Both the position numbers and the translations under genes were made by a program. From assembly GCF_036346855.1 (NCBI RefSeq), contig NZ_CP107841.1, positions 9,366,001 through 9,430,000 on the forward strand: a stretch of 64,000 nt of DNA, written 5' to 3'. Position 1 is the first letter of the stretch; every line of letters starts with the position of its first letter. Shown in pieces: positions 25,692-41,571 of this stretch. The notes beneath the pieces were generated by a model. The model saw nothing but the letters and a program-made list of their open reading frames with translations, did no database searches and had not been told where the DNA came from. Origin of the DNA: Streptomyces europaeiscabiei. GTDB lineage: Bacteria > Actinomycetota > Actinomycetes > Streptomycetales > Streptomycetaceae.

Positions 25692-26717
25692 CTAGTAGGT
25701 GACCACCGCGCGGAAGCGGACGGCGCCCTCGGCGACCTTGTCGACCACCGTGGCCACCTCCTCCTTCGGGAACGTCTCGACCATGGGGGTGACCTTTCCC
25801 GCGGCGGCGAGGTCGAGGGCCTCCCGGAGGTACTGCGGCCCGTTGTGGGTGGAACCGATCACCTGCATTCGCGTGCCGATGAACGGAAGGCCCCGGCCGG
25901 CGGGCGGGACGGTGAAGGGGGCGGTGGGGTCGATGCCCGACAGGACCAGTCGCCCGCCGGGCCGCAGGCCCGTCAGCGCCTCCGCCGCGGCCGGATACGA
26001 CTTGCCGGTCGCCAAGATGACGTCGGCGCCACCCGCTGCGCGCAATTCGGCGCCGTTCGCCACGACCTCGTCCGCGCCCAGCCGCCGTACCACGTCGTGT
26101 TTGTCCGCCGAGCTTGTCATCGCGATCGTCTCGAGGCCGCAGGCGTGCGCGAACTGCACCGCCAGATGGCCCACCGCGCCGATGCCTAGCACGGCGACCC
26201 GCTCGTGCGGCTGAGGATCCCCGGCGCGCAGGGCGGACCAGCCCGTGTAGCCCGCGCACAGCATGGGCGCGGCCAACTCGAAGGGGAGCCCGTCGGGCAG
26301 GAGTACGGTCTCGTCGGCGCCCACGACCATGTACTCGGCATGTCCGCCCTGCACGCTGAAACCGGTCGTGGTGGGTGCCGCGCACGCGAAGGCGGCCTGC
26401 CCGGTCACCGGCAGACCCGCACGGCAGTAGTCGCACCGTCCGCAGGCGGCCCGTACCCAGTGGGTTCCCACCCGGTCACCGACGCGGCGCGTGGTGACCC
26501 CCGGCCCGACCGCGACGACCTCGCCCGCCGGCTCGTGTCCGGTGATCGCCGGGTCGACCGAGGGGAACCGGATCGCCCCGGTGGTGGCCAGGACGTCGTT
26601 GACGCATACGCCGGAGGCGCGCACCCGCATCAGCACCTCGCCGGGCCCCGGCTGTGGAGTAGGCACCTCGCGCAGTTCCCACCTGCCGTTGACCTCGGGT
26701 ATCACGGCTGCCTTCAC
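25692..26717 (-). CDS. zinc-dependent alcohol dehydrogenase (MDR superfamily)
   Basis: 341 residues from a GTG at 26717, chosen because AAAGG lies eight bases before it; a GTG three codons earlier would overlap the ribosome site. Catalytic-zinc ligands are in SGVCVND, GHEPAGEV and the later cysteine; the structural zinc loop reads CGRCDYCRAG with a fourth cysteine in AFAC. NAD(P)-binding motif LGIGAVGHLAVQFA near residue 180. Last gene of the leftward ligB-ligA-demethylase group. It may oxidise an aldehyde or alcohol made in aromatic breakdown; substrate unknown. Confidence 0.92.
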   Translation of the reverse strand: MKAAVIPEVNGRWELREVPTPQPGPGEVLMRVRASGVCVNDVLATTGAIRFPSVDPAITGHEPAGEVVAVGPGVTTRRVGDRVGTHWVRAACGRCDYCRAGLPVTGQAAFACAAPTTTGFSVQGGHAEYMVVGADETVLLPDGLPFELAAPMLCAGYTGWSALRAGDPQPHERVAVLGIGAVGHLAVQFAHACGLETIAMTSSADKHDVVRRLGADEVVANGAELRAAGGADVILATGKSYPAAAEALTGLRPGGRLVLSGIDPTAPFTVPPAGRGLPFIGTRMQVIGSTHNGPQYLREALDLAAAGKVTPMVETFPKEEVATVVDKVAEGAVRFRAVVTY

Positions 26718-26809
26718 GAAGTTCACCTTTCTTGTGCGACGGAGGAAGGGAGGGCGCGGATGTCGGCGACCACCGACGGCGCAGGAGGTACCCGCGCGTC
26801 ACGACAGGG

Positions 26810-28171
26810 TCACAGCGTGCCGACGTCGGTGCGACGGCGGTCCTCCTTCATGGGCAGGGAGGTGACGGTGGCGCGGAGTTCGCGCTGGGCGGTGCCGGGG
26901 TTCCCCCACAGCACCGTCACCTCGGTGCCCGGTGCCGCCAGGTCGCGATCGATGACGCAGAGGGAGATGGTGCGGCGCAGGTGCGTGCTGTACGTGCGGG
27001 AGGTCGAGACGCCTACCGGGTGTCCGTCGACCAGCACCTGGTCGAGGCTGGCGCCGATCTTGCGCGGCATCTCCATGGGATCGGGCAACGGGCCGTCGCC
27101 GAACTGGGAGGCGAACAGGGCGATCACGTCCTCGTTGTTCCAGTGCAGGCCTGCCAGGTGGCGCGCCGGACCGCCTTCGGCCGCCTCCGCGGCCAGCGCG
27201 TCGCGTCCGATGAAGTCGTGGGAGGTGAGAGCTCCGCGACGGCCCCAGCCGAGCTCACCGGGACGGCGGAAGTACTCCGTCACGTCGGTCGGGACGAAAC
27301 TGCCGTCCGGCATCCCGCGGGGAAAGAGCTTGGGTGCCCCCGGCGTGATGATCGACGAAGGCAGGTAGTCGATGCCGACGGTCGCGATGCCCGCCTCGAT
27401 GTGGGCCACGAGTTGGGAGCGCATCCCCAGTTGGCGGATGCCGTGCTCGGTCCCGGCCTCGACGACCGCCGTCCAGATCGCGTTGGCGTCGTCGGCGGAC
27501 CCGTGCAGTTCGTACCCCAGCTCTCCGGAGATCCCCGAGCGCAGAATCCGCACGGGGATACCGCTGATACTGGTCATGCGGCTCCGGTTGAAGCCGATGT
27601 CCCGCAGGCTCTCGCCGGTCGCGGCTTCGAGTGCGAACAGCGACGTCGGACCCTGGATCTCGAAGATGAACAGCTCAGGGCTGATCACCTCGCTCTTGGC
27701 GTCCCAGCCGCCCTGGTCGATCTGCCAGGCGGTCCAGTCGACGCCGCCGCCGCTGTAGACGAACTCCTCCTCGGCCACCCGGTACAGCAGGCCCTCGGAG
27801 GCGATGTGGCCGCGTTCGTCGAGCTGGACGTGATGCTTGATCTGGCCGGGCTCGAAGCGTGACAGGTTGTTCATGCCGATGCGGGTGAGCGCGGTCAGGG
27901 CCTCGCTCCCGCGGACGCGGAGCTTGCCGATGGCCGACCAGTCGCCGATATAGCACGACCGCACATGGGCCAGGCTCTCCTCGCCCCAGTTGGTGTACTC
28001 GTAGGGGATGAAAACGGGCGTCCACCGGAAGAGCAGACCCTTGACGTTCGCCTCGTCCTGCGCGGCGGCCGCCGGGCTGAACACCGCCGGCCGCTCCACG
28101 TCGAAGGGGCGGTCGGCCAGTTCCAGCAAAGCCTGGTAGCGGGCGCGCTGCCGATCGGTCAGATGCTCCAT
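26810..28171 (-). CDS. GcvT-fold tetrahydrofolate-dependent methyltransferase, LigM/DesA-like O-demethylase
   Basis: 453 residues. The fold is that of glycine-cleavage T protein: a folate-binding GcvT domain (about 40-330) and a C-terminal beta-barrel (about 370-450; VSTSRTYSTHLRRTISLCVID). It is longer than GcvT and shares the LigM/DesA layout, including SGGGVDWTAW and GELGYELHG. In Sphingobium such enzymes move the methoxyl methyl of vanillate, 3-O-methylgallate or syringate to tetrahydrofolate. Placement directly after the ligA/ligB-like pair supports an aromatic substrate. DMSP-demethylase-like or other methyl donors remain possible. ATG at 28171 with GGAGG upstream. Confidence 0.82.
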   Translation of the reverse strand: MEHLTDRQRARYQALLELADRPFDVERPAVFSPAAAAQDEANVKGLLFRWTPVFIPYEYTNWGEESLAHVRSCYIGDWSAIGKLRVRGSEALTALTRIGMNNLSRFEPGQIKHHVQLDERGHIASEGLLYRVAEEEFVYSGGGVDWTAWQIDQGGWDAKSEVISPELFIFEIQGPTSLFALEAATGESLRDIGFNRSRMTSISGIPVRILRSGISGELGYELHGSADDANAIWTAVVEAGTEHGIRQLGMRSQLVAHIEAGIATVGIDYLPSSIITPGAPKLFPRGMPDGSFVPTDVTEYFRRPGELGWGRRGALTSHDFIGRDALAAEAAEGGPARHLAGLHWNNEDVIALFASQFGDGPLPDPMEMPRKIGASLDQVLVDGHPVGVSTSRTYSTHLRRTISLCVIDRDLAAPGTEVTVLWGNPGTAQRELRATVTSLPMKEDRRRTDVGTL

Positions 28172-28332
28172 GGAATTCCTCCGCGGTGATGGTGGTGCGG
28201 CATCTCTGACCCGGAGGTGTTTCGCCGGGAAGCCGTCATTTCGCCGAGCCGCATACGCACGAGACAAATGGACGGGGTGGTCTGGGCCGCTGATTCGGCA
28301 GGCGACGAACATACGCCGCCCTGGTCACGCGG

Positions 28333-28620
28333 TCACGTCGTCACGTCGCCGACTTCCAGACCCTTCAGCTGCTCCAGGTAGAACGCCATCCATTCCATGG
28401 AGAAGCCGCCGTTCAGCCGGAGGGCGAAGTTGTAGAGCAGGAAGGGGTGGACACCGAGCTGGAACAACTCGCGGAGGTCGGTCCTGGCCAGCGCCTCCCG
28501 CTCCTGATCGGTCAGGTCGCGGCCGGCGAGGACGGCCTCCGGGGCTCCCTTGAGCTGCTTCGCCAGGTCGCCGTCGGCGGCGACCTCCCACAGCACCCGG
28601 TTGGTGGCGTACCGGCTCAT
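28333..28620 (-). CDS. ligA: extradiol dioxygenase small subunit (LigA family)
   Basis: 95 residues, helical: LTDQEREALARTDLRELFQLGVHPFLL and FALRLNGG match the LigA subunit, which packs on LigB and closes its active site. It is shorter than LigA of Sphingobium (about 139). The ATG at 28620 overlaps the stop of the catalytic-subunit gene (ATGA), so the two are made in equal amounts. Confidence 0.85.
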   Translation of the reverse strand: MSRYATNRVLWEVAADGDLAKQLKGAPEAVLAGRDLTDQEREALARTDLRELFQLGVHPFLLYNFALRLNGGFSMEWMAFYLEQLKGLEVGDVTT

Positions 28621-29501
28621 GGGGCCACCACCTCCGATACGGGGACGGACCCATGGTCACCCCAGGCCAGGAAACCGGTCGGCGGGGCGAAGGTGCAGGC
28701 GACCTTCTCGGCGTAGTCCGGGGTGGCTCCCCCCACAGCGCCGAGTGCGAAGAGGAAGTCGAGGAATCCCGGGGTGCCGCTGCCGATCGCCGCGAGCGAC
28801 TCGTAGGTGGTCTCCTTGATCAGCGACGCCGTGTCACCGGCGGTGATCTGCGCCCATACCCGCTTGTCCCACGCCGTCTCCGGCTCGGTCTGGAACCGTG
28901 CCATGGCCGGGTTCCCGATCGCGTTGGACAGGTGGCCGCTGGCGATGATCGCCACCCGCAGGTCGGCCGGGTGCGCCTCCACCATCTCGACGATGGCGGC
29001 GCCGAGGTCGTAGAAGCGACGTCCGGTGGCCACCGGGGGAGCCATCACGTTGGTGAAGATCGGAACGACCGGTAGGTCCTGCTCGGGCCTGAGGAAGCTC
29101 AACGGGACGGTGAACCCGTGGTCGAGCAGGAAGTCATCGCTGTAGGAGAAGTCGATCCCGCGCTGGAGGCCGCCGCGCAGCAGGTGCCGCGCGATGTCCC
29201 CTTCCAGGGCGGTGTCGTAGGGGCCGATACCGAACAGCTCCTGCTCGTGCGGGAACGGGCCACGCGCCCGGACCGCCTTGCCGATAAGGAAGGTCGGCAT
29301 GTTGTCGTAGAACCACTGGTTGAAGTGGTCCCCGGAGACCACCACCAGCACGTCGGGCCGCGCTGCGGCGAGCCGCGCGCGCAGTTCCGCGAAATGGGCC
29401 ACTGATCGCTGCAGCGGCTCGGGAGCCGCCGACCCGCCGGCGGCAACGCCGGGGAGCAGCGGGTCGTGGGGAGTGCACAGCACTTGGACGACGCTGGCCA
29501 T
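28617..29501 (-). CDS. ligB: extradiol ring-cleavage dioxygenase catalytic subunit (LigB family)
   Basis: 294 residues. Class III extradiol fold with Fe(II) ligands H12 (VLCTPHDP) and H59 (VVSGDHFNQW), and further conserved H128 (LLDHGFTVPL) and H190 in IASGHLSN, which matches the general base of LigB. The glutamate ligand is probably one of E230/E234. LigAB-type enzymes open protocatechuate, gallate or 3-O-methylgallate at the 4,5 position using O2. Coupled to ligA and followed by the demethylase gene. ATG at 29501, AAAGGTGAT ribosome site. The natural substrate is inferred only. Confidence 0.9.
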   Translation of the reverse strand: MASVVQVLCTPHDPLLPGVAAGGSAAPEPLQRSVAHFAELRARLAAARPDVLVVVSGDHFNQWFYDNMPTFLIGKAVRARGPFPHEQELFGIGPYDTALEGDIARHLLRGGLQRGIDFSYSDDFLLDHGFTVPLSFLRPEQDLPVVPIFTNVMAPPVATGRRFYDLGAAIVEMVEAHPADLRVAIIASGHLSNAIGNPAMARFQTEPETAWDKRVWAQITAGDTASLIKETTYESLAAIGSGTPGFLDFLFALGAVGGATPDYAEKVACTFAPPTGFLAWGDHGSVPVSEVVAP

Positions 29502-29988
29502 CGATCACCTTTCACCATGGAACCCTCCAGGCAGACCGGCCCTACAGAGGGGATCTCCACATTCGGTGGTAACAGCGTGAGCGGTGCGAGGTCGTTGTGG
29601 AATAGCGGAACCTGTATGCGCACTATCCACGGAGCGAATGGTCCGACGACGTTCGTCGTGTGGCGTTCCGTTCCCCGGAGCAGTGCCACCAGCATGGGAG
29701 GGGGCGCCAGATCCTTGTATTCCGCCCCGCGGTGCGAGCCGTCCCGAAGCGCAGACACGGCGTGCGCTCGGGTATTCAACTGGTCCATGCCTGCGATATG
29801 AAACCGGGTATTGGACGCGGCTCGGGCTACCCACAAGATGGTTCTGCACCACGGGAGTTCGGGGTTTCCACAGCGGAGCCGCCGGGCTTCCCGGTGCTCA
29901 CCGACGCTCGTTGGCATTCGGCCCGGACGTCTCTCATCGCCCTGCACCGATCTCCTCAACCTGCCCTGACGCACCCGGGAGTCCTGCC
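29502..29988. other. divergent promoter region of the ligB and monooxygenase genes
   Basis: The 487 bases between the two outward-facing genes must hold both promoters. No near-consensus -35/-10 pair or clear palindrome was found. The frame of the monooxygenase stays open upstream of its TTG, but the composition is not coding-like. Confidence 0.5.
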
Positions 29989-31116
29989 TTGTCCAGCATC
30001 CAGAACGCGCTCATCGTCGGCGGGGGCATCGCCGGCCTGACCGCCGCGACGGCCCTGTCCCGTACCGGAATCTCCTGCGACGTCGTCGACCTGGCGGACG
30101 GTCCGGCCGGGGCCGCCATCTCACTGCTCAACCGGGCCGTCGACGGTCTCGCCGAGATCGGAGTCCTGGATCAGTGCCTGGACGAGGGGCTGGCGGTGTC
30201 CCCGCAGGACATCTTCGCCTACTTCGACGCGGCGGGGAAACCGGTGTCCACGCCGCCCATGCCTCCCGCACCGACGTCCGCTCTGCCGCACGGCATCCTC
30301 ATCTACCGGCCGGCCCTGGCGAACATCCTCAGGCGAGCCGCGGAGGGGGCCGGCGCGAGCGTGCGCAACGGTGTGGGTCTCGCCGGGCTGCGGCAGACGG
30401 AGGACTCCGTCACCGCCACCCTCACCGACGGGTCGGAGCGGGCGTACGACCTGGTCATCGGCGCGGACGGCATCCGGTCGACGACGCGTTCGCTCATTCT
30501 GGGGGACCAGGTGACCCCGGCCTACTCCGGCCTCACGATGTTCCGATGGGTCGCCGACGGGGTGCCGGACGTCGGCCCGATCGGGCACTACGAGTCGGAG
30601 CACCTCTGCGTGACCCGGCGGCAGCGGGACGGCGGCCTCTACCTCGCGACCGGCCGCGAATTCCCGGAGCGCCCGCGGATCGATGCGGCACAGGCCAGGC
30701 AGATCGTCCGGGAGAACCTCCGCTCGTTCACCGCGCCGCTGATGCGCGCGCTGGAGGAGCGGCTCACGGACGACACGAGGATCATCGTCAACGACTACGA
30801 CTGGCTGCTCGTGTCCGAGCCCTGGTCCCGGGGCCGGGTCCTGCTGATCGGCGACGCCGCGCACGCCACCACTGCCCACCTCGGCGCGGGCGGGGGCATG
30901 GCGATCGAGGACGGAGTGGTCCTCGGTCAGGAGTGCGCGGCCGGAGGCCCGCACCAGGACGTGTTCAAGCGCTTCATGACACGGCGCTTCGAGCGGGCTC
31001 GTCTGGTCGTGCAGACCAGCGTCGAACTGGACCGCATGCAGCAGCGGGGCGAGCCGATCGCCGCCCAGAACAAGGTGCGGGGGCGGGCGATGGAGGCTCT
31101 GTCCAGCCCCTACTGA
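29989..31116 (+). CDS. FAD-dependent aromatic monooxygenase
   Basis: 375 residues from a TTG at 29989 preceded by CGGGAG; the frame is open further upstream but without family likeness. FAD-binding GXGXXG variant LIVGGGIAGLTAATAL at the N-terminus, the DG motif DLVIGADGIRSTTR (about 160) and the second FAD motif GRVLLIGDAAHATTAHLGAG (about 280). This PHBH/UbiH-type group hydroxylates phenolic rings using NAD(P)H and O2. Divergent from ligB; it may add the hydroxyl needed before ring cleavage. Confidence 0.92.
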   Translation: MSSIQNALIVGGGIAGLTAATALSRTGISCDVVDLADGPAGAAISLLNRAVDGLAEIGVLDQCLDEGLAVSPQDIFAYFDAAGKPVSTPPMPPAPTSALPHGILIYRPALANILRRAAEGAGASVRNGVGLAGLRQTEDSVTATLTDGSERAYDLVIGADGIRSTTRSLILGDQVTPAYSGLTMFRWVADGVPDVGPIGHYESEHLCVTRRQRDGGLYLATGREFPERPRIDAAQARQIVRENLRSFTAPLMRALEERLTDDTRIIVNDYDWLLVSEPWSRGRVLLIGDAAHATTAHLGAGGGMAIEDGVVLGQECAAGGPHQDVFKRFMTRRFERARLVVQTSVELDRMQQRGEPIAAQNKVRGRAMEALSSPY

Positions 31117-31185
31117 GCGCCCCGTGCCCAGGCGCGTGCGGACCGCAGGCCCACGCGGGCCGGCGAGCATGGCGACGCACGACCG

Positions 31186-31226
31186 CCGGACCGGGCGTCG
31201 CCCCTGACGGACGGCGCCCGGTCCGG
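31186..31226 (+). terminator. strong hairpin after the monooxygenase gene
   Basis: CCGGACCGGGCG (31186-31197) and CGCCCGGTCCGG (31215-31226) form a perfect 12-pair stem with a 17-base loop, 70 bases past the stop. Confidence 0.75.
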
Positions 31227-31302
31227 TGCGCTCATCGAGGCGCGCCTGCGCGCTCACCGGACTTCGACCCCCGTCGAAGCACCACGCTCACGTCACCGCC
31301 CG

Positions 31303-31707
31303 CTCACGAGCCGGAGGCCGGGGACGATCCGGTCAGGAAGCCCTCGTCGTCCCGGTACGGCTCCAGTTCGTCGGCGGTGACCAGCCATGGGCCCGGGGTG
31401 CCGGCGAAGTCCTGCCCTCGGCCGGGCCCAGGCCGACCCTCAGCTCCCGGCGCTGCAGGTCGCGCGCGGACCAGTCGTTGAGCACCGTGCAGCCGAAGAC
31501 GGCATCACGGGCCTGCTCCGGAATCGGCGACCCGCCGCGCCTGCCGACGACTGCGGCGACCTCGAGCGCGAAGTCGAGCAACTCCGAGCCGGGCGGGACG
31601 GCGACGTCGTCACGGGCGCCGACGAGCGCGTAGGGGTTGGCGAAGCAGAAGGTGGGTGCCTCGTGCCACTCCGGCATCACTCCGCCGTCGGTCATGCTCC
31701 GTACCAT
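31303..31707 (-). pseudogene. fumarylacetoacetate hydrolase family protein, decayed
   Basis: From 31707 the minus strand reads FCFANPYALVG, DFALEVAAVVGRRG and CTVLNDWSARDLQRRE, the core of an FAH-family enzyme including metal-site glutamates. After GLGPAEG (about 31412) one base is missing; the next frame continues GQDFAGTPGPWLVTADELEP and ends at 31303. The N-terminal third is absent or scrambled, and the C-terminal third is missing. Not functional. Confidence 0.8.
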
Positions 31708-31920
31708 CCCCCGTACGAGGTCGAGACTGCCCTTCCCCCGGGAGGGCGTGCAGCCCTACCTCGGAGGGGACACCCGAAGACGTCCTGCCCTGGGACTCCC
31801 AGGTCGTGAACTTTCATCGACCCGGACCGGCGAGGTGGAGGGGCGGCGGAGCGAGCGTGTTCGACGGACGTCGGTCGACGATGACGTCGTGCACCACGGG
31901 CACGATGGGCTCCTTGCCCG

Positions 31921-32907
31921 TCATTTGACGGCGAGGGGGTTGACCGGTGCGCCGACGGCGCCGGTCACGGGCAGGGGGGCGGCCACGAGAAGGAACTCGT
32001 AGACGCCGTCGGCGGCGCAGTCGACGGCCAGGGTGTCGAGGTCCCACAGCTCCCCGATGAACAGGCCGATGTGCGGGATGGCGACCTGATGCAGCGGCTG
32101 GAAGGCGACATCGAACTCGTTCGGGCGCACCTCGAAGCCCCAGGTGTCGGTGGCGATCCCGGCGATCTCGGAGGAGTGCAGCCAGTCGGCCGTGGCGAAC
32201 GACAGACCGGGGGCGGGACCGCCCGCGTAATCGCCCCAGCCGTCGCCCGCGGCGATGCCGCGCCGGGCCCGGGTGAGCTGGCCGGTGCGCACCAGCAGCA
32301 GGTCGCCGCGCCCGACCCGGGCGGTCTCACCTTGCGCGGCGATGGTCGCATCGAGGTGTTCGGCGGTGATGGCGAAGCCGTCCGGCAGTTCGCCCTCGGC
32401 TCCGATCGTCCTGCCGACGTCGAGCAGCACGCCCCGGCCGGCGATCCTGTCGGCCACGGTCTCGATGCCGGTGAGCCTGTCTCCCTCGCCGGTCACCACC
32501 TGTGAGGCGCGGCGTCCGTTGTAGGCCGTGCCGTGGTCGAAGATGTGGCCGAGGCCGTCCCACTGGGTGGAGGCCTGCAGCGGCATGAACACCACGTCGT
32601 CCGCGCCGCCGAGCCCGTGCGGGAACTCGGCCGGGCCGAACTCGGCGTCCAGGCCGGAAGAGAGCATGGTGTGCACCGGGTTGGTGCGCCGCCGCCACCC
32701 CTTCTGCGGACCTTCCGCGTCGAAGCGCTGGGCCAGCGAGAAGCTCACGCCGCGGCGGGCCAGCCCCGCTCCCTGTGCCCGTTTGGCCTCGTCGAGGAAG
32801 TTCAGCGTGCCGAGGACGTCATCGGCGCCCCAGCGGCCCCAGTTGGAGACGCGCGCGGCCGCGGCGGCGATGGCCCCTTCGGGATCGGAGCGGTCGAACG
32901 TGGTCAC
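31921..32907 (-). CDS. cyclase-family protein (kynurenine-formamidase-like, PF04199)
   Basis: 328 residues. The family metal-binding pattern is represented by STQWDGLGHIFDHGTAYNG (about 115-135), where H/D residues normally bind Zn or Mn, with later LLLVRTGQL and HQVAIPHIGLFIGEL. Members hydrolyse amides or esters and occur often in aromatic-degradation clusters. It may act on a ring-cleavage product or lactone. ATG at 32907, GGAGGAAGACC ribosome site. Confidence 0.88.
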   Translation of the reverse strand: MTTFDRSDPEGAIAAAAARVSNWGRWGADDVLGTLNFLDEAKRAQGAGLARRGVSFSLAQRFDAEGPQKGWRRRTNPVHTMLSSGLDAEFGPAEFPHGLGGADDVVFMPLQASTQWDGLGHIFDHGTAYNGRRASQVVTGEGDRLTGIETVADRIAGRGVLLDVGRTIGAEGELPDGFAITAEHLDATIAAQGETARVGRGDLLLVRTGQLTRARRGIAAGDGWGDYAGGPAPGLSFATADWLHSSEIAGIATDTWGFEVRPNEFDVAFQPLHQVAIPHIGLFIGELWDLDTLAVDCAADGVYEFLLVAAPLPVTGAVGAPVNPLAVK

Positions 32908-33024
32908 AGGTCTTCCTCCGTGGAGTTCCGATCAGGGATCGGCGGCAAAATCATCGGGACTTCGTCATGGGTGCGGTTCCCACCGCGGGATCGGACCGAG
33001 GAGGCGGGCGGCGTTGCCACCGCG

Positions 33025-33545
33025 GGATGGCGTCGGGAGTAGGCGTTCAGCCGCTCGCCGAGGGTGCAGCCCAGGGGTGGATGAACACGGCCGTGCCCAG
33101 TTCCTCGGCGGCGGCCCAGAAGTCGGCCGGCGACGGGTCGTCGAGTTCCCGGCCCGGGCCGGCGGAGGTCGTGATCTGTACTTCCCGCGTACCGAGATCG
33201 CGGACCGCTGTCACCCGCTGGCCGACGGCCAGGTCGGAGTACCGCAGCGTCACGGCTCCGATCGGAAGCAGCCGAGCCGGTTCCTTCGCGCACCACGCGG
33301 CGACGCCCTCGTTGCCCACCGCGACGATGCGGGTGGCCGCTTCCGGTCGGCCCACGCACGCGGCAGCGGTACTGCGCTGACCGCCTGCACCTGCACCTGC
33401 ACCTGCACGCGCGCGGCGTCCATCGCGGCCAGCCGCAGGTCGAGGTCGACCAGCTTGGGCCCGGGCTCGGCCATCTGCTTCAGGTTCACCGCCAGGGACG
33501 CCCGGCCGAGGGTGGCCGCGTCGGTCTCCCGCCGGTCGTACTCGG
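33025..33545 (-). pseudogene. amidohydrolase-2 family protein, decayed
   Basis: Fragments in different frames join into one amidohydrolase of the ACMSD / 4-oxalomesaconate-hydratase type. They are VDLDLRLAAMDAARVQVQ (about 33460-33400), then after a shift EGVAAWCAKEPARLLPIGAV and EELGTAVFIHPW (to about 33075), then after another shift GCTLGERLNAY (about 33030). The first break lies in a CTGCAC repeat. N- and C-terminal parts are lost. A lost LigJ-type or decarboxylase step of 4,5-cleavage metabolism is possible. Confidence 0.75.
33385..33408. repeat. hexanucleotide repeat, (CTGCAC)x4
   Basis: Four perfect tandem copies. On the coding (minus) strand they give a VQVQVQ run in the amidohydrolase remnant, at the point where its frame breaks, consistent with replication slippage. 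Confidence 0.85.
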
Positions 33546-33559
33546 TCGGCCGGCCGTAC

Positions 33560-34618
33560 TCAGTCGGTCGGGAAACGGCCGAAGTGGGGCTTGCGGCCCT
33601 GCAAGTCCTCGGCGACGCAGCGGTTGCGCTGCCGTCCGAGGTAGGTGATCTCACTGTCGATGACGTCGCCGTCGTGCAGGAAGCGACCGTGGTGCTTGCC
33701 GTTCCCGGGCGGAGAGCCCATGAAGACGATGTCCCCGGGGGTCAGCCGGACGTGCTCGGAGGCGTACGCCACGAACTGCGCCGGGTCGAAGATCATGTCG
33801 CCGGTCGGCCAGTCCTGCATGACCTGGCCGTTGACCTTCAGTGTGGTCCGGATGGTGTCGTCGAGAGTGAAGAACTGTGCGGGCACGACGAACGGCCCCG
33901 CCGGCTTGAACGTCGGCTGGTGCTTGCCCATCCAGTCGAAGCCCCACGGGATGTCGGTGCGGCGGAACTGGTCGACCGTGCCGAGGTCGTTGACGATCGT
34001 GTAGCCGGCGATCAGCGCTGTCGCCTCGTCCGGGGTGAGGAACCGACCGGAGCCGCCGACGACGACCCCGAGTTCGAGCTCCCAGTCGGGCTCGTCGCCC
34101 AGGGCCGGCAGCACGACGTCGTCGGTCGCCCCCACGAGCGAGGAGTGCATCCCGACCCAGGCGAAGGGAATCCCCTCTCGCGACCGGCGCTCCATGAACG
34201 CGAGATTGCGCTGGAAGAACTCCTCGTCGGTCTCGCCCGGCCGACGGTTGTGCTGGTTGAAGGCGTTCTTCGTCAGCATCTGCGCCGAATGCGTCTTGTA
34301 GTTGGCGCCGGCGCCCAGCAGGTTGGGATGGCTGAGCGGCGGCAGCGAACGCAGCTCCGCCAAGGGCCGGGTCGGTCGGGAGGAGTCGGTCCAGACCTCC
34401 TCGAGGAACTGGAAATTCCTGGTCCAGTCGGCGAAGACCTCGTGCAGATCGTGGAACCGGTCGGACAGGTCGGTGACCAGGCCGTCGGCGGTCACGAGGG
34501 CCGGGAAGGCACGTGTCTCGCCGGCGAAGGTACCGAGCGCGAAGGTTCCCGCGCGCAGCCCGGTCGCCGGGTCGATCGGATGTTCCGGAGCGCGCGTGAC
34601 AGGGGTGGTCTCATTCAT
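33560..34618 (-). CDS. fumarylacetoacetate hydrolase family protein
   Basis: 352 residues. Divalent-metal site in DWELELGVVVGGSG (two glutamates), later GYTIVNDLGTVDQ (aspartate), and the family ending GDIVFMGSPPGNG. The family includes acylpyruvate hydrolases, 2-oxo-hepta-dienedioate hydratases/isomerases and oxaloacetate decarboxylases, all acting on C-C bonds of ring-cleavage products. It is divergent from the LysR gene, so is its likely target. Two decayed relatives lie nearby. ATG at 34618; GTGACCCAT upstream gives only a weak ribosome site. Confidence 0.9.
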   Translation of the reverse strand: MNETTPVTRAPEHPIDPATGLRAGTFALGTFAGETRAFPALVTADGLVTDLSDRFHDLHEVFADWTRNFQFLEEVWTDSSRPTRPLAELRSLPPLSHPNLLGAGANYKTHSAQMLTKNAFNQHNRRPGETDEEFFQRNLAFMERRSREGIPFAWVGMHSSLVGATDDVVLPALGDEPDWELELGVVVGGSGRFLTPDEATALIAGYTIVNDLGTVDQFRRTDIPWGFDWMGKHQPTFKPAGPFVVPAQFFTLDDTIRTTLKVNGQVMQDWPTGDMIFDPAQFVAYASEHVRLTPGDIVFMGSPPGNGKHHGRFLHDGDVIDSEITYLGRQRNRCVAEDLQGRKPHFGRFPTD

Positions 34619-34953
34619 GGGTCACGTTTCCGTTTCGGTGACACTGGGTCGTGCGGGAGGCACGACACCTGGACGGCGGAAAGTCATGGATCACCTTTCG
34701 CCCTGGGCCTGGCCGACCGTTCCGGCGGACGACGAGGAGCCCGGACGACGGGCCGGCGGGAGGATGATCTGATTGTGACCCGGGCCACGAGGCCTGGGAT
34801 ATGCTCAGCCTTGTATGCGACCCATCGACGGAACGGATGCTCAGGCATCGACCGGCCGGTGCGGGTCGTTCGGCGAAGGTTGCCGAGCCGCACCGCTGTG
34901 CTGGTGGGATCGCCGGACCGCGCCTGGAACAGAAGCCGGGGGAGGACACCGCG
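34619..34953. promoter_or_regulatory. divergent FAH / LysR control region
   Basis: Between outward-facing genes, the usual place for LysR binding. ATGCTCAG occurs twice as a direct repeat (34801-34808 and 34837-34844), and GATGC-TCAG-GCATC (34836-34849) is a short palindrome around the second copy. These are the best candidates for the regulator's site, but no consensus was available to test them. Confidence 0.45.
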
Positions 34954-35919
34954 GTGACGTACAACTCGACTCCAAGCCCACCGGCAGGTGGCCGCACCTC
35001 AGAGCCGTCAGCCCGGATACTGCGCAACCAGGACGTGGCGACCCTGCCCGTCCTGCGTGCCCTGCTGGTCGAGCGCAACGTCACCCGGGCCGGCGAGTCC
35101 GTCGGCCTGAGCCAGCCCGCCACCAGCGCGGTGCTGGCCCGCCTTCGTCGCCGGTTCGGCGACCAGCTGCTGATCCGGGTGGGCCGGGACTACGAGCTCA
35201 CGCCGCTGGCCGCCGGCCTGCTGTCACGGATCGAGTCGGCCACCGAGGCGCTGGAGCGCGTGTTCGGCGACGACTTCGACCCCGCGACGACCAACCGGCA
35301 GTTCTCCCTCGCGCTCTCCGACTACACCGTCGCCATCCTGTTCGAGGAACTCAACCGGATTCTCGCCGAGGAGGCCCCCGGGGCCGGACTCGTCCTTCGC
35401 CCCCTCACCACCAGCTCCCACCTCGACGCCGACGCCCTGATCCGGCACACCGACGGGGTGGTCCTGCCGCATGAGCTGGTGCAGGGCTATCCCGGTCGGC
35501 TCCTGCTGCGCGACCGCTGGGTGTGCGTCGTGGCCGACAGCAACACGGCGATCGGCAGCGAGCCGACCCTCGCCGAACTTGCCGTCCTGCCGTGGGTGAG
35601 CCAGTTCACCCACTCCGATCCGGCCAGCTTCCCGGCGCTGCGCCACTTGCGGTCGAACGGCATGGAGCCGCACGTGGAGGTGGTGACCGACAGCTTCCTC
35701 TCGGTCCCGTTCCTGCTCGCCGGCAGCAACCGTGTCGCCTTCCTCCAGGAGAGACTCGCGCGACGCCTGGCACCCGTGGCGCCCGTGCGGATCGTGCCCA
35801 GCCCGGTGGACATCGGGCCGCTCAACCTGTCGCTGCGATGGCACCCGACCGTGAGCGACGATCCCGGCCACCGATGGTTCCGTGACGCGCTGGGGCGTGC
35901 GGCGGAACGCGTCGCCTAG
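34954..35919 (+). CDS. LysR-family regulator (NodD/NahR type)
   Basis: 321 residues from a GTG at 34954 with GGGGGAGG upstream. Winged helix-turn-helix about 25-85 (LPVLRALLVERNVTRAGESV and LSQPATSAVLARLRRRFGD), followed by a two-lobed ligand domain ending about 315. The DVATLPVLRALL start is characteristic of the NodD/NahR/LinR group, which responds to aromatic inducers. Divergent from the FAH gene; likely the activator of the island. Confidence 0.92.
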   Translation: MTYNSTPSPPAGGRTSEPSARILRNQDVATLPVLRALLVERNVTRAGESVGLSQPATSAVLARLRRRFGDQLLIRVGRDYELTPLAAGLLSRIESATEALERVFGDDFDPATTNRQFSLALSDYTVAILFEELNRILAEEAPGAGLVLRPLTTSSHLDADALIRHTDGVVLPHELVQGYPGRLLLRDRWVCVVADSNTAIGSEPTLAELAVLPWVSQFTHSDPASFPALRHLRSNGMEPHVEVVTDSFLSVPFLLAGSNRVAFLQERLARRLAPVAPVRIVPSPVDIGPLNLSLRWHPTVSDDPGHRWFRDALGRAAERVA

Positions 35920-36884
35920 CTGTATTGCCCTGTGAGGTCGGGGACGCGGCTGGCGGGTGGCCGACCTTTCAAGCGCGGAGTTTCCGCGGTGGTGATTGTT
36001 GGTGTGCGGCCAGTCGGGGAACGCCGCGCGTCGCCGTCCACCGCTCCTCGCGGCGCACCAGCGCCGTGGCGCAGGGGCTCTCACCTCCACGCACCTCGTC
36101 ACCGCCTCACGGTGCACGTGGACCGAGGCGTGGACCCGGCCCGGCGGCCGGGGGTCCGGTCGACGACCCAGCAGGAGGACGTCGGTGGCCCGCCATCCGT
36201 GCCGTGGATTGGTGGCATACCAGTTCGACCATTCCGCATCGGTGCGGCTGTTGTCACTATCGACGATGTCGGCGGGACGAGCAGGCACCGAAAGCCCGGC
36301 TCCTCGTCGCAGACGCACTCCACCCCCTGTCGCCCGGCCGAGAGTCGGACGGCAGCCGCCCCAGGAGACGACGACGATGGTGGTATCCGATGGGACCCCT
36401 GTGCCTTCCGCGCAGGCCGCCGCTGACGCAAGCCGAGCACAACGACCGCGCAGCCGCTTTTCGCCGCGCAGCCGGCCCGCCGGGGCGGCCGCTGGGACCT
36501 GGACCGCCCGGCGACCTTCAGCCCGCCCCCGGAGGGGGCCTGCACCGGACCGGGGGCGACAGCTACGACGCCGACACCGTCCGGGCCGCCCCGACGGCCG
36601 CCTCCGCCGGGCACGGGATGCGGAACCACCCCGGCGAGCCGCCGCCGCGGACCGCCGTCAGCCGCATGAGTGAGAGAGGCGTATCGGCCGAGGAAGTCGT
36701 GGCCGTGCAGGTCGACGCCACGGGACCGGCACAGTACCCCGGGGGTGCGGAACAGGTCGCTGATGCCGTCGATGGGGATGAAGCCGCCTCCCGGCCTCGT
36801 CGCCGGGAACAGCGCTCACGTCGCTGTTCGCCGCTCCGTCCGGCGATGGACCGACGCGTGGAGCGCTTGCCCGCCGTGAGCCGT
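35920..36884. other. long region without an intact gene
   Basis: Reading frames here are biased and unlike any family I recognise. Because the FAH remnant begins at its right end, the right half may hold more of that gene's decayed 5' part, but no segment could be aligned by eye. Confidence 0.4.
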
Positions 36885-37226
36885 TCGGACCGTTCGTCGT
36901 GCCGGCGCCCTTCACCGACCGCGACGCCGTACGCATCGTCCTGCAGGTCATCGGACAGGTGATGCAGGAGCGGCCGCAGCCGACGCGGTCCTCGACGTCC
37001 CCCGGCTGATCCCCCACTCCCGCGAGCGGGTGCGGCTGCGGCCCGGGACCTCGTCCTCGACGAGGATCCCCGGCCGGGAAACGGCGCCCACCAAGGCGGC
37101 CGTCTCCTCTCTGCCGGCGACCTCGTCGACAGCTCCTTCACCGGCCCGGCCCGCCGGCGCAACCGCCGCGTGAACGAGGACCTCGGCGGCCGGCGACCCG
37201 TCATCGTGCTCGCCCCGAGCATGTGA
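36885..37226 (+). pseudogene. second decayed fumarylacetoacetate hydrolase family copy (C-terminal half)
   Basis: Three frames join into the C-terminal half of an FAH protein. They are GPFVVPAPF and VIGQVMQE (about 36888-36972), then DVPRLIPHSRERVRLRPG (to about 37050), then DLVLDEDPRPGNGAHQGGRL, AGDLVDSSFTGPARRRN and VNEDLGGRRP, ending in TGA at 37224. The last block lines up residue by residue with the end of the intact FAH protein at 33560 (GNGKHHGRF, GDVIDSEI, VAEDLQGRKP). At least two frameshifts; non-functional. Confidence 0.8.
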
Positions 37227-37329
37227 GGCCCCGGCGGTGCCCTCTCCGCGCGCGTCGGCGCGACGCACTGCCCGACATCTCGCAGCAGTGACCCGGCGCC
37301 CCCGCCGACCACAACCCAGGAGGCACCCC

Positions 37330-38706
37330 ATGACCGACCAACCGCACCTCGAGACCCTGCAGCAGCGCATCGACCGCAGCGGAGGCGCGCTGGCGATGCT
37401 GCGGACCAATCCCGCCACGCACTACCCGTTCACCTACGCCCAGGAGTACACGACCTGGCACAACGAGCAGTGGGCCTGGAAGAACGCTTGCGTCCTGTTC
37501 GACCAGTCCCACCACATGACCGAGGTGCACGTCACCGGGCCCGACGTGAAGCGCTTGATCAGCGACACCGGCGTCAACAGCCCGGCGACCCTCGGCCGTG
37601 ACCGTGCCAAGCAGTTCGTCGCCGTCGGGCCGGACGGGCGTTACATCGGCGACTGCATCCTGTTCGGCCTCGAGGAGGACCACCTGAGCTTGGTCGGTGT
37701 ACCCCAGGCGGCCAACTGGGTGCAGTTCCAAGCTCAACAGGGCGACTACGACGTCGAGTTCAGCGTGGACCCGGCGTCGGTCCACAACCCGCTGGGCCGT
37801 CGACAGCACTACCGGTACCAGCTCAACGGCCCTCGCACCCAGGAGATCCTGGAACGCGCCGTCGGCGGCCCGATCGACCGCATCCCGTTCTTCCGCATGG
37901 GCTCCTTCGAGATCGCGGGGACCCCGGTTCGCGCCCTGAACCACACGATGGCGGGCGTGCCGGGCGAGGAGTACACCGGCCTGGAGCTCTTCGGCCCGGT
38001 GGAGCACGGCCCCCGCGTCCTGGAGACGCTGTTGTACGCCGGCGCGCAGAGCGGCCTGCGCCAGGGCGGGGCCGTGTCCTACCTGTCCTCGACGGTCGAG
38101 TCCGGGTGGATCCCCGCAGTCCCGGCCGCCGTCTACAGCTCCCCGGAGACGGCCGCCTACCGGCAGCACCTGCCCGGTTTCGGCATGGAGGGCATGATCA
38201 CCATCGAGGGCAGCTACGTCTCGGACGACATCCAGGACTACTACTTCTACCCCTGGGAGCTGGGCTACGGCTCCATCGTCAAGCTCGACCACGACTTCGT
38301 CGGCCGCACCGCACTCGAGCAGGCCGCGCAGGGACCCAAGCGTCTCAAGCGCTGGCTGGAGTGGGACACCGACGACGTCATGGAGGTGGTCCGGGCCGGC
38401 TTCTTCGGAGACGGTCCCCGGCCCAAACTGCTCAGCCTGCCCAACCTCAACCCCGCCACGATCTACCTGGACAGCGTGATGCAGGGCGATCGCCTCGTGG
38501 GCCTGTCCACGTGGGGTGGCTACACCGTCAACGTCGGGCGCGTGGTGACCATCGCCATCCTCGACGAGTCCCTGACCGACGGCGACCGCGTCGAGGTCCT
38601 GTGGGGCGAGCCCGACGGCGGAACCGGCCGGCCGCTCGGCGAACCCCACCACATACAGACCACCATCCGGGCCACGGTACGGACCCGGCCGCCGGCTCAG
38701 CACTGA
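37330..38706 (+). CDS. ligM: LigM-type vanillate/3-O-methylgallate O-demethylase (tetrahydrofolate-dependent)
   Basis: 458 residues. Signature regions of LigM are all present: NEQWAWKNACVLFDQSHHM (about 40-60), IGDCILFGLEEDHLSLVG, GPRTQEILER, VESGWIPAVPAAVYSS (about 257-272), DDIQDYYFYPWELGYG and DHDFVGRTAL, and a barrel tail with VEVLWGEPDGGTGRP. The enzyme transfers an aryl methoxyl methyl group to tetrahydrofolate, giving 5-methyl-THF and a phenol. The next genes (metF-like, purU, folD) process that methyl group, as ligM-metF do in Sphingobium. ATG at 37330, AGGAGG seven bases upstream. It is closer to LigM than the paralogue at 26810. Confidence 0.88.
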   Translation: MTDQPHLETLQQRIDRSGGALAMLRTNPATHYPFTYAQEYTTWHNEQWAWKNACVLFDQSHHMTEVHVTGPDVKRLISDTGVNSPATLGRDRAKQFVAVGPDGRYIGDCILFGLEEDHLSLVGVPQAANWVQFQAQQGDYDVEFSVDPASVHNPLGRRQHYRYQLNGPRTQEILERAVGGPIDRIPFFRMGSFEIAGTPVRALNHTMAGVPGEEYTGLELFGPVEHGPRVLETLLYAGAQSGLRQGGAVSYLSSTVESGWIPAVPAAVYSSPETAAYRQHLPGFGMEGMITIEGSYVSDDIQDYYFYPWELGYGSIVKLDHDFVGRTALEQAAQGPKRLKRWLEWDTDDVMEVVRAGFFGDGPRPKLLSLPNLNPATIYLDSVMQGDRLVGLSTWGGYTVNVGRVVTIAILDESLTDGDRVEVLWGEPDGGTGRPLGEPHHIQTTIRATVRTRPPAQH

Positions 38707-38746
38707 CGTGCCGGACCACTCGACCCACCCATCCGAGAGGCCGACC

Positions 38747-39610
38747 GTGAACCGACTCCCCTCCCAGCACGACGTGATCGTGCGCGCTGACCTCGTCCGG
38801 GCCGTGAGGGGTCTCGGCTACGAGGTCATCCCGTTCGCCAGGACCGAGCAGGCGGTCCGCGACCATGTCCCGACCGACGTCCCGCTCACCGTGACCGCCT
38901 CACCGGCCAAGGGGCAGGACGCGACCATCGACCTGGCCGTCGCGCTCGCGGGCCACGGTTATGCCGTGTCACCGCACCTGTCCGCCCGGCAAGTGAGGGA
39001 CCACCAGCACTTGGCCGGGCTCGTCGGCAGGTGCCGCGACGCCGGTATCACCGGCGTGTTCGTGGTCGGAGGCGACCGTACCGCCGCGACGACGGCGTTC
39101 CCCGACGCTCTGGCACTGCTCCGGGCGGTGCACGAGCTGGACCACGGCTTCACCGACATCGGGATCGGCGGTCATCCCGAGGGCCATCCGGACGTCTCGG
39201 AGCAGGTGCTGATGCAGGCGCTGGCGGACAAGGCGCCGTTGGCCACGCACATCACGACACAGATCGTCTTCGATCCCCGAGCCATCCTGGCGTGGATCCT
39301 CCGGGTTCGCGCCCACGGCATCGACCTGCCGGTCCACGTCGGCCTCCCCGGTGCCGTCCACCGGCAGAAGCTGTTGCGCGTCGCAGGCGGACTTGGCCTC
39401 GGGGAGTCGGCGAAGTTCCTGAAGAAGCAGCAGACCCTGCTCCGGCGCTTCTTCCTCCCCGGCGGCTACCGGCCGGACGCCTTGCTCGCGGGGCTCGCGC
39501 CCCATCTCGGGGAGGCCGACGACACCGTCGCCGGGTTCCACGTCTTCACCTTCAACGATCTCGCGCCGACCGAGGCGTGGCGCCGGCGCCTTCTGTCGAA
39601 CCTGACATGA
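38747..39610 (+). CDS. metF: methylenetetrahydrofolate reductase-like protein (MetF family)
   Basis: 287 residues from a GTG at 38747 (GAGAGG upstream); a GTG at 38708, one base after the ligM-like stop, is an alternative that adds 13 residues. TIM-barrel MetF features: DATIDLAVALAGHGYAVSPH (start of barrel), GVFVVGGDR, DIGIGGHPEGHPD, and ATHITTQIVFDPRAILAWI (substrate and FAD side). Next to the demethylase it would oxidise 5-methyl-THF to 5,10-methylene-THF, the reverse of its usual biosynthetic direction. The sequence is divergent from housekeeping MetF. Confidence 0.85.
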   Translation: MNRLPSQHDVIVRADLVRAVRGLGYEVIPFARTEQAVRDHVPTDVPLTVTASPAKGQDATIDLAVALAGHGYAVSPHLSARQVRDHQHLAGLVGRCRDAGITGVFVVGGDRTAATTAFPDALALLRAVHELDHGFTDIGIGGHPEGHPDVSEQVLMQALADKAPLATHITTQIVFDPRAILAWILRVRAHGIDLPVHVGLPGAVHRQKLLRVAGGLGLGESAKFLKKQQTLLRRFFLPGGYRPDALLAGLAPHLGEADDTVAGFHVFTFNDLAPTEAWRRRLLSNLT

Positions 39611-39672
39611 CCGGCGCCACGCGCAGCACCGTGCCGGCGCGTACCCACCCCGCCCATCCCACCGGAGTCGCC

Positions 39673-40617
39673 ATGTCCGCAGCCACCACGTCCGAACGAA
39701 CCGCGTCCGCGCCCACCACGTCCACGGGGAGCACTTCGCGTGAGGGCGGGATCCCCGACGACCGAGCCGACCACGGGCGTCTGCTGATCCAGTGCCCCGA
39801 CCGGCCGGGCGTGGTCTCGGCGGTGAGCACGTTCCTCGCCGAGGCCGGCGCGAACATCACAAGCCTGGACCAGTTCTCGACGACCGCGGTCGACGGCACC
39901 TTTTTCCAGCGCACCGGGTTCCACCTCCCCGGCCTGTCCGCGGCCCGGGACGAATTGGACCGTGCGTTCGAAACCGGCGTCGCTCAGCGCTGGGGCATGA
40001 CTCACCGCCTCACCGAGGCCGCCCGGCCCAAACGGGTGGCCATCATGGTGTCCAAGACCGACCACTGCGTGCTCGACCTGCTCTGGCGTCACCGTCGCGG
40101 CCAACTGGACATGAATGTGGTCATGGTCGTGTCCAACCACCCCGACCTCGCCGACGAGGTCCGGCCCTTCGGGGTGCCTTACATCCATGTCCCCGCCTCG
40201 CGGGACAACCGCGCCGAAGCCGAGAGCCGCATCCTCGACCTGCTGCGCGGCAACGTCGACCTCGTCGTGCTGGCGCGGTACATGCAGATCATCACGCCCT
40301 CCTTCCTCGAAGCGGTCGGCTGTCCGCTGATCAACATCCACCACAGCTTCCTGCCCGCCTTCATCGGGGCCGGCCCGTACCAGAAGGCCAAGGACCGCGG
40401 CGTGAAGCTGGTCGGTGCGACCGCCCACTACGTCACCGCCGATCTGGACGAGGGCCCGATCATCGACCAGGACGTCGTCCGGGTCGACCACCGGCACACC
40501 ACCGCCGACCTCGTACGCCTCGGCGCCGACGTCGAGCGCGCCGTTCTCTCGCGCGCCGTGCGCGCGCACCTGGAGGACCGGCTCGCCGTCCACGGCAACT
40601 CCACCATCGTCTTCTGA
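39673..40617 (+). CDS. purU: formyltetrahydrofolate deformylase
   Basis: 314 residues from the ATG at 39673 (CGGAG upstream); an ATG at 39607 overlapping the metF-like stop would add 22 residues. N-terminal ACT domain (LIQCPDRPGVVSAVSTFL, about 40-120) and a formyltransferase-fold catalytic domain with VVMVVSNHPD, LARYMQIITPSF, INIHHSFLPAFIGAGPY (catalytic Asn/His) and ADLDEGPIIDQD (catalytic Asp). It hydrolyses 10-formyl-THF to formate and THF, freeing folate for another demethylation. Coupled to its neighbours, which points to a catabolic role rather than purine synthesis. Confidence 0.93.
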   Translation: MSAATTSERTASAPTTSTGSTSREGGIPDDRADHGRLLIQCPDRPGVVSAVSTFLAEAGANITSLDQFSTTAVDGTFFQRTGFHLPGLSAARDELDRAFETGVAQRWGMTHRLTEAARPKRVAIMVSKTDHCVLDLLWRHRRGQLDMNVVMVVSNHPDLADEVRPFGVPYIHVPASRDNRAEAESRILDLLRGNVDLVVLARYMQIITPSFLEAVGCPLINIHHSFLPAFIGAGPYQKAKDRGVKLVGATAHYVTADLDEGPIIDQDVVRVDHRHTTADLVRLGADVERAVLSRAVRAHLEDRLAVHGNSTIVF

Positions 40618-40638
40618 ACCGTCTTCCAAGGGACTACC

Positions 40639-41571
40639 GTGACCGCGCAGCTCATCGACGGCACCACCGTCGCCCGGCAGGTTCGTTCCGACGTCGCCTC
40701 CGGCGTCGCCGCACTCATGGACGCCGGGGGGAACGCACCCGGCCTGGCCACCGTCCTCATAGGCGACGACCCGGCGAGCGGGGTGTACGTCCGGAACAAG
40801 CGCCGCGCCTGCACCGCGGCCGGCATGACCGACCTGCACCGCCATCTTCCAGCCGAGACGACCCAGGATGACGCTGCCGCGCTCATCGACGAACTGGCGG
40901 CCGACCCGGCGGTCTCCGGGATCCTCCTGCAGTTGCCGACACCGGCCCACCTGGACGCCGCCGCCCTGCTCGCGCGCATCCCGGCGCACAAGGACGTCGA
41001 CGGCCTGACCTCGGTGAACGCCGGACTGCTCGCCCAAGGCAGCCCCGGCCTGCGACCCTGCACTCCCTCGGGGGTGATGGCCCTGCTCGACGCCCACAGG
41101 ATTCCTCTGGAGGGTGCCGAAGCCGTCGTCGTCGGCCGCAGCACCTTGGTCGGGAAGCCGATGGGCCAACTGCTGCTGGAGAGGAACGCGACCGTCACGA
41201 TCTGCCACTCCCGCACCCGCGACCTGGCCGGTGTGTGCCGCCGCGCCGACGTCCTGGTCGTGGCGGCCGGGATTCCGGGTCTCATCGGCATCGACGCGGT
41301 CAAGCCCGGTGCCACCGTGATCGACGTCGGCATCCACCGCTCCCCGGCGGGTCTGCGCGGGGACGTGGACACCGACGCCGTCGTCGGCACCGCGGCCTTC
41401 GTCACCCCCGTCCCCGGTGGCGTGGGCCCGATGACCATCGCCATGCTCCTGGCCAACACACTCATCGCCGCGCGAGCACAGCAGGCGGATCGGTGTGGCC
41501 CTCCTGGGGCCGGCTCTCTCCGCGGCCGGCGAGCGGTCGTCCTCGGCGACGGCGCCGGCACGACGCCGTGA
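40639..41571 (+). CDS. folD: bifunctional methylene-THF dehydrogenase / methenyl-THF cyclohydrolase
   Basis: 310 residues from a GTG at 40639. Catalytic lysine region SGVYVRNKRRACTAAGM (about 50-66), ILLQLPTPAHLD, KDVDGLTSVN, and the NADP motif VVVGRSTLVGKPMGQLLL; VTPVPGGVGPMT closes the fold. The last 30 residues after ANTLIAARAQQ are low-complexity and probably not conserved. It converts 5,10-methylene-THF to 10-formyl-THF, linking the MetF-like and PurU steps. Probably a second, pathway-dedicated folD, since housekeeping copies are normally elsewhere. Confidence 0.95.
   Translation: MTAQLIDGTTVARQVRSDVASGVAALMDAGGNAPGLATVLIGDDPASGVYVRNKRRACTAAGMTDLHRHLPAETTQDDAAALIDELAADPAVSGILLQLPTPAHLDAAALLARIPAHKDVDGLTSVNAGLLAQGSPGLRPCTPSGVMALLDAHRIPLEGAEAVVVGRSTLVGKPMGQLLLERNATVTICHSRTRDLAGVCRRADVLVVAAGIPGLIGIDAVKPGATVIDVGIHRSPAGLRGDVDTDAVVGTAAFVTPVPGGVGPMTIAMLLANTLIAARAQQADRCGPPGAGSLRGRRAVVLGDGAGTTP

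Follow-up and report, generated by a model that had tools for sequence, protein, structure and literature searches.

A candidate folate-dependent demethylation module beside a divergent, partly decayed LigAB gene cluster in Streptomyces europaeiscabiei

Introduction

Does a compact group of Streptomyces genes remove methyl groups from methoxylated aromatic compounds with folate and then open the uncovered ring? The question is raised by a stretch of 64,000 nucleotides of Streptomyces europaeiscabiei (assembly GCF_036346855.1, contig NZ_CP107841.1; hereafter the window), positions 9,366,001-9,430,000 of a 10.76 Mb main contig in a genome of 10.95 Mb in all. It holds genes for two proteins of the GcvT fold (GcvT1 and GcvT2), for LigA- and LigB-like subunits of a ring-opening dioxygenase, for several helper enzymes and for a row of one-carbon (C1) enzymes. 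An initial annotation had tentatively taken them for a compact island in which two LigM/DesA-like demethylases and a 4,5-dioxygenase act jointly on vanillate, syringate or 3-O-methylgallate, a chemistry presented as unusual for actinobacteria. Profile scans of the island genes within 25-42 kb with Pfam and NCBIfam models bear out the gene families: the LigA/LigB-type subunits, FAD hydroxylase, FAA-hydrolase family (FAH), cyclase, LysR, MetF-like, PurU and FolD proteins are all present, and both GcvT-fold proteins are real. The pathway drawn from them fares less well. Our preferred reading, held with middling confidence, is that these genes form two linked modules within an aromatic-catabolism island of patchy distribution, which has partly decayed in this strain.

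Results

GcvT2 and its C1 row resemble a known kind of demethylation module

The first module is a row of four genes:

37330..38706, plus strand: GcvT2, a LigM/DesA-family protein of 458 amino acids, probable tetrahydrofolate (THF)-dependent aryl O-demethylase (PF01571, 103.5 bits)
38708..39610, plus strand: divergent MetF-like methylene-THF reductase (PF02219, 38 bits)
39757..40617, plus strand: PurU, formyl-THF deformylase (TIGR00655, 383 bits, cut-off 286); the open reading frame opens at 39031 and the start was placed roughly from homology
40639..41571, plus strand: FolD, methylene-THF dehydrogenase/cyclohydrolase (PF02882, 210.5 bits; PF00763, 118 bits)

Third-position GC is 0.82-0.93 in the island genes and 0.74 in the over-long PurU frame.

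GcvT2 scored 432 bits on the DesA model and 428 bits on the LigM model, and at most 51 bits on those for GcvT, DmdA, SoxA and the others listed. With LigM it shares 39% identity over 448 positions, and the alignment shows that it retains LigM His60, Glu215, Tyr247 and Trp256, with Val at the position of Arg122 and Phe at that of Tyr31; among the 12 GcvT2-like relatives in the alignment, 7 have the Arg. In LigM, Tyr247 is the catalytic residue and Arg122 takes part in carboxylate binding. A grouping with sarcosine, dimethylsulfoniopropionate (DMSP) or glycine-cleavage enzymes would have spoken against a LigM-like function; in our tree GcvT2 grouped with LigM (support 89), the controls being PF01571 proteins of this genome, which have very long branches and include no named DMSP or sarcosine enzyme. 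The best solved relative of the MetF-like protein is 7xg9 (112 bits), a stand-alone 5,10-methylene-THF reductase, probably the enzyme of Sphingobium sp. SYK-6. The chloromethane-degrading (cmu) system of Methylobacterium likewise has metF, folD and purU for the same three-step oxidation of methyl-THF to formate; its methyl donor system is corrinoid-dependent, unlike the one predicted for the island.

The nearest known system is LigM/DesA of SYK-6, with which GcvT2 shares the fold, the position of the catalytic tyrosine and the adjoining metF. A methyl-transferring tyrosine is stated for this kind of enzyme (PMC9296663), and SYK-6 is described as having ligM, metF and ligH in one operon and as thought to use FolD (PMC6888825). 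Coupling of LigM to a methylene-THF reductase that runs in reverse has been reported, and many other bacteria are said to have LigM-MTHFR-like gene sets (PMC12585457). The island differs from SYK-6 in the lost Arg122, in having PurU and FolD instead of LigH, and in that no gene of a protocatechuate 4,5 route was recognised near GcvT2.

Among 297 sampled Streptomycetaceae genomes, 14 carry GcvT2-like genes (E <= 1e-30), this genome included. Outside it there are 20 such places, 19 of them with a MetF homologue within 5 kb (two pairs share one MetF each) and 17 with PurU within 6 kb. The misses are G091c (neither gene) and G240 (no PurU), each with about 1.5 kb of flank, and G103a, where PurU lies at 13.8 kb. 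Together these data support the assignment of GcvT2-MetF-PurU-FolD to a predicted LigM/DesA-like module for folate-dependent demethylation and oxidation of the methyl group, in line with the initial annotation and of a type already known. GcvT2 would shift the methyl group of a methoxylated aromatic compound to THF, MetF would oxidise methyl-THF to methylene-THF, FolD would convert this to formyl-THF, and PurU would free formate and THF. The row thus points to folate-dependent aryl demethylation as a recurring module of Streptomycetaceae and offers a testable enzyme set for the use of lignin or plant phenols. At two of the loci with LigM-like genes and a C1 row, an open reading frame resembling dihydropteroate synthase (by eye, from its N-terminal motif) lies alongside (L049:3082-4053 and L053:9120-10118).

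A divergent LigAB and GcvT1 lie in a second row

The second module comprises the following intact genes, together with the broken ones listed further below:

25692..26726, minus strand: zinc-type alcohol dehydrogenase (ADH; PF08240/PF00107), at the end of the LigB-LigA-GcvT1 row; 93-98% identical and in the same place in four relatives
26810..28171, minus strand: GcvT1, a GcvT-fold protein of 453 amino acids, probable folate-dependent C1 transferase (PF01571, 130.3 bits); start picked from homologue lengths
28333..28620, minus strand: LigA-like small subunit of 95 amino acids (PF07746, 24.3 bits, just below the cut-off of 25.3)
28617..29501, minus strand: LigB-like subunit with an altered active site (PF02900, 120 bits)
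29584..31116, plus strand: FAD monooxygenase/hydroxylase (PF01494, 97 bits; PRK06847 model, 311 bits, cut-off 372); start uncertain, with homology only from about 29998
31921..32907, minus strand: PF04199 cyclase-family protein; the sole solved relative listed is the uncharacterised 5ibz
33560..34618, minus strand: intact FAA-hydrolase family protein (PF01557, 159.5 bits)
34801..35919, plus strand: LysR-family regulator (PF00126/PF03466), 95-96% identical in relatives and 68% to a homologue beside LigB in the genome G984

LigB, LigA and GcvT1 follow one another in one orientation, with a 4-base overlap and then a 161-base gap, and this arrangement is kept in four relatives; ADH is a further member of the row (25.7-29.5 kb) and lies beyond the span first given for the island. 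Homologues of the LigA-like protein (59% and 48% identical) stand beside LigB in G984.

The predicted structure of LigB has the LigAB-type class III extradiol dioxygenase fold. Its identity to LigAB protocatechuate 4,5-dioxygenase and DesB gallate dioxygenase is 22-23% in structural alignment, and it scored 98 bits on the subfamily model, whose cut-off is 290. In LigAB, His12, His61 and Glu242 form the iron site and His195 is catalytic. The island protein keeps His12 and His59 and has Gly245 at the Glu242 position and Asn193 at the His195 position. In all 73 aligned sequences, window included, the former position is Gly, and the latter is never His (Asn in 53, Ile in 11, Val in 5, Leu in 4); His190 and Glu86 are invariant. 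By these sequence criteria the LigAB of the island is a separate subfamily and not of the protocatechuate/gallate type, and vanillate or gallate is an unlikely target of the ring-opening cluster.

The claim of two LigM/DesA-like demethylases stands for GcvT2 and is doubtful for GcvT1. The profile scores of GcvT1 do favour DesA and LigM (195 and 172 bits); it is 30% identical to LigM and lacks the catalytic tyrosine. Relatives of GcvT1 (E <= 1e-100) occur in 5 of the 297 genomes, all among the 14 with GcvT2-like genes; leaving this genome aside, all four fall among 13 of 296 (hypergeometric 2.3e-6, with genome size uncontrolled), a co-occurrence that argues for a folate-linked function, and in G103 one lies within 2 kb of a LigM-like gene. 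In the tree GcvT1 sat in a separate clade together with another of this genome's PF01571 proteins, whose branch is very long, so that long-branch attraction is likely. In G103 and G178 the neighbour of the GcvT1 relative is a protein with a Tat-like signal, and a protein sharing its motif by eye is encoded close to LigM-like genes in G095 (L047:12752-13939, L048:13301-14467 and L052:2157-3302); the one scanned, that of L047, has an RNase Z-like metallo-beta-lactamase (MBL) fold by profile.

The nearest precedents known to us are actinobacterial: BrdA (Rhodococcus sp. BD7100 and Arthrobacter sp. GBD-1) and SesA (Sinomonas sp. no. 22) are reported as THF-dependent GcvT-fold enzymes that open methylenedioxy rings, BrdA sharing 26.7% identity with LigM and with DesA and 27% with SesA (PMC5547118). 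GcvT1 is comparable in its identity to LigM (about 30%) and in length (453 against 457 amino acids), a likeness drawn from the published description. An Actinomadura protein is reported to match Dmt06 at 100% identity (PMC9404685), and Solirubrobacterales, Rubrobacter and other metagenome-assembled genomes are reported to contain DesA-like genes (PMC9296663). Actinobacteria were thus already known to have folate-dependent GcvT-fold chemistry, and the premise that it would be new to them is too strong.

The LysR regulator, FAD monooxygenase and FAA-hydrolase also brought flavonoid and isoflavonoid catabolism (fde, ifc) to mind, a candidate that we set aside. The flavonoid route is described with an FdeC-like glyoxalase-type dioxygenase, an alpha/beta hydrolase and cupins (PMC11069340); no Pfam cupin or glyoxalase match was found among the scanned window genes at 25.7-41.6 kb. 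In its favour, an esterase-family gene (PF00756) is present in relatives and survives as a piece in the window.

The island is conserved in relatives and broken in this strain

We compared four relatives: S. griseus subsp. griseus NRRL WC-3645, S. caniscabiei NE06-02D, G774 and G876. The intact proteins of the island are 93-99% identical in the first two, and protein clusters 97% identical to GcvT1 and GcvT2 bear S. canus and S. acidiscabies names. Because the gene order inside each module is the same in all four, at 92-99% protein identity (the FolD of G774 lay outside the stretch compared), the grouping is not due to chance. The gap between the modules varies, from about 2.7 kb in WC-3645 through 7 kb in G876 to 13-14 kb in S. 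caniscabiei and G774. In the latter two a benzoyl-CoA (box) gene set lies between LysR and GcvT2 (L043:1439-6577 and L093:11275-15960), with BoxB, BoxC and benzoate-CoA ligase of L043 all above the NCBIfam cut-offs; no such set was seen between LysR and GcvT2 in the window.

Four further features of the window are broken or decayed:

31333..31707, minus strand: broken second FAA-hydrolase (FAH2; PF01557, 69.7 bits), with stretches near both ends missing
33047..33355, minus strand: piece of a broken ACMSD-like amidohydrolase (PF04909, 34.8 bits)
33532..33541, no strand: breakpoint, at which about 2.0 kb of WC-3645 (amidohydrolase start, DoxX, P450) is absent
36627..37199, no strand: decayed stretch (tblastn) with pieces of a second GcvT1-like gene (36627-36812, minus strand) and of an FAA-hydrolase (36878-37199, plus strand)

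FAH2 and the amidohydrolase are both intact in all four relatives; in WC-3645 they measure 327 and 340 amino acids (L045:12729-13712 and L045:14860-15882). The top Protein Data Bank (PDB) match of the intact amidohydrolase is the ACMSD entry 4ign (155 bits), ACMSD being a decarboxylase that acts on a ring-cleavage product. We also considered a LigW- or LigY-like amidohydrolase and rejected it (76 bits for LigW and 26 bits for LigY entries, against 155 for ACMSD). Three of the relatives (S. caniscabiei, WC-3645 and G774) have DoxX, which has almost vanished from G876 and is absent from the window. The P450 gene beside it is full length in S. caniscabiei only: its longest called frame in WC-3645 is 270 amino acids, it is broken in G774 and almost gone in G876, and the window has none. 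Beyond ADH, WC-3645, G774 and G876 (the relatives compared here) carry homologues of a TetR regulator and the esterase, of which the window keeps only short pieces.

Aligned to WC-3645 (blastn, L045), the window lacks, besides the 2.0 kb at the breakpoint, about 0.4 kb inside its amidohydrolase. FAH2 is short of about 0.35 and 0.14 kb at or near its ends, and two parts of the esterase/TetR stretch, of about 2.2 and 0.3 kb, are absent too. The breakpoint is also an edge of the matches to L094/L093 and L097. The leftover pieces and the relatives together suggest that these differences are losses and not later gains. Because genes are missing or broken, the idea of a compact, complete pathway fails for this strain.

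Protocatechuate has other likely routes in this genome

About 110 kb away from the island, a textbook protocatechuate 4,5-dioxygenase is encoded (LigB 345 bits to 1b4u_B; LigA above the TIGR02792 cut-off). The genome has three VanA_C-family oxygenases, one of them near this textbook LigAB; the two scanned with NCBIfam gave sub-cut-off matches only, the best to a 4beta-methylsterol monooxygenase model. PcaG (above TIGR02423) is encoded elsewhere, as is an oxalomesaconate tautomerase (above NF033377) at C1:9061.7 kb. Protocatechuate, and possibly vanillate, therefore have other likely routes. We consider the stretch around the textbook genes (L119, G000:C1:9507001-9527000) the better candidate for a 4,5-cleavage island in this genome: at about 11.2-17.8 kb it holds LigA and LigB together with a VanA_C-family oxygenase, a BshB1-like protein and, judged by eye, a reductase-like gene. 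No island gene scanned within 25-42 kb was named LigC, LigI, LigJ, LigK or LigU by Pfam or NCBIfam, and the genome was not searched for LigK, LigJ or LigI. LigI and LigJ are amidohydrolases; the island holds an amidohydrolase piece that is ACMSD-like when intact.

Discussion

In our preferred reading the methyl-oxidation row is linked to a second module consisting of LigB-LigA-GcvT1-ADH with the FAD hydroxylase, cyclase, FAA-hydrolase and LysR regulator. GcvT1 would act as another folate-dependent C1 transferase and expose a ring hydroxyl, by demethylation or by demethylenation as in BrdA and SesA, and the divergent LigAB-fold enzyme would then open that ring. In the relatives, the ACMSD-like decarboxylase, FAH2 and sometimes the P450 may carry the route on; with these broken or missing here, this strain probably no longer completes it.

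Several observations weigh against this reading. Both GcvT proteins fall below the equivalog cut-offs (DesA 800, LigM 580), so that GcvT2 is a family member and the equivalog of neither; with its Arg122 also lost, no substrate is fixed. GcvT1 has Gln at the position of LigM Tyr247 and lacks His60 and Trp256, as do its four relatives examined. The LigB is without a known iron ligand, and the co-occurrence of GcvT1 with GcvT2-like genes could reflect large catabolic genomes. Homologues of LigB, LigA, the cyclase, the amidohydrolase and the FAD hydroxylase were found at none of the 20 other GcvT2-like places (stretches of 18-20 kb at 16 places and of about 4.3 kb at 4), so the modules may simply adjoin one another. 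No LigAB lies near the GcvT1 relatives in G103, G178, G091 and G095 (20 kb stretches), and the LigB-LigA-FAH-P450 cluster of G984 has no GcvT gene in the surrounding 80 kb, so GcvT1 is not needed for that LigAB. Finally, the box gene set lies between the two modules in S. caniscabiei and G774.

These points lend some weight to a possible, if not probable, alternative, in which independent modules stand side by side: the GcvT2 module, with GcvT1 belonging to it, would serve one methoxylated substrate, and LigAB, FAH, cyclase and FAD hydroxylase would degrade an unrelated ring. GcvT2-like modules without LigAB at all 20 other places within the stretches compared, the GcvT-free cluster of G984 and the distance of 13-14 kb between the modules in two relatives are as expected from it. 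It accounts less readily for GcvT1 standing in a tight row with LigB-LigA in four relatives, and the remnants of GcvT1-like and FAH genes that lie immediately upstream of GcvT2 suggest past intermixing of the two modules.

G984 has a further pair of clusters (L100 and L101, C1:9386-9426 kb) with homologues of LysR, FAA-hydrolase-family protein, cyclase, FAD monooxygenase and amidohydrolase and a VOC-type protein (by eye), that is, the same helper genes with another kind of ring-opening candidate.

A bolder version of the linked-module reading, which we think unlikely, is that the LigB subfamily dropped the Glu ligand and His195, uses the invariant His190 and/or Glu86 with His12 and His59, and in this island receives its substrate from a GcvT-fold enzyme without the tyrosine, which frees the ring hydroxyl by means of folate. 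Such a ring-opening route would combine two altered enzyme classes and act on a substrate outside the vanillate/gallate group. If the LigB subfamily is active, the class III ring-opening fold can work without the textbook carboxylate ligand.

That the island is dead or dying, with too many genes lost for any pathway to work and the rest relics not yet decayed, seems to us very doubtful: six stretches of WC-3645 are missing, with P450, DoxX, amidohydrolase, FAH2, TetR and esterase all affected, more decayed pieces lie at 36.6-37.2 kb and the P450 is eroded in three relatives as well, but the twelve remaining genes have open reading frames of full length, and their proteins are 92-99% identical to those of relatives. 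Equally improbable is the joint pathway first proposed, with GcvT2 and GcvT1 demethylating vanillate, syringate or 3-O-methylgallate and LigAB cleaving protocatechuate or gallate, since the high DesA and LigM scores of GcvT2, the LigAB/DesB fold and the complete C1 branch are countered by the loss of Glu242 and His195 in LigB, Arg122 in GcvT2 and Tyr247 in GcvT1, by the lack of LigC/I/J/K/U names among the scanned island genes, by the textbook LigAB with its VanA_C oxygenase, PcaG and oxalomesaconate tautomerase elsewhere, and by the part of the ring-cleavage cluster missing here. The gene list alone misled as to the substrate, the textbook protocatechuate 4,5-dioxygenase being elsewhere in the genome and some steps being absent from the island.

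Adjoining the island, the window encodes a Ricin-B-lectin-domain protein and a GH53 family glycosyl hydrolase (42147-45540, minus strand).

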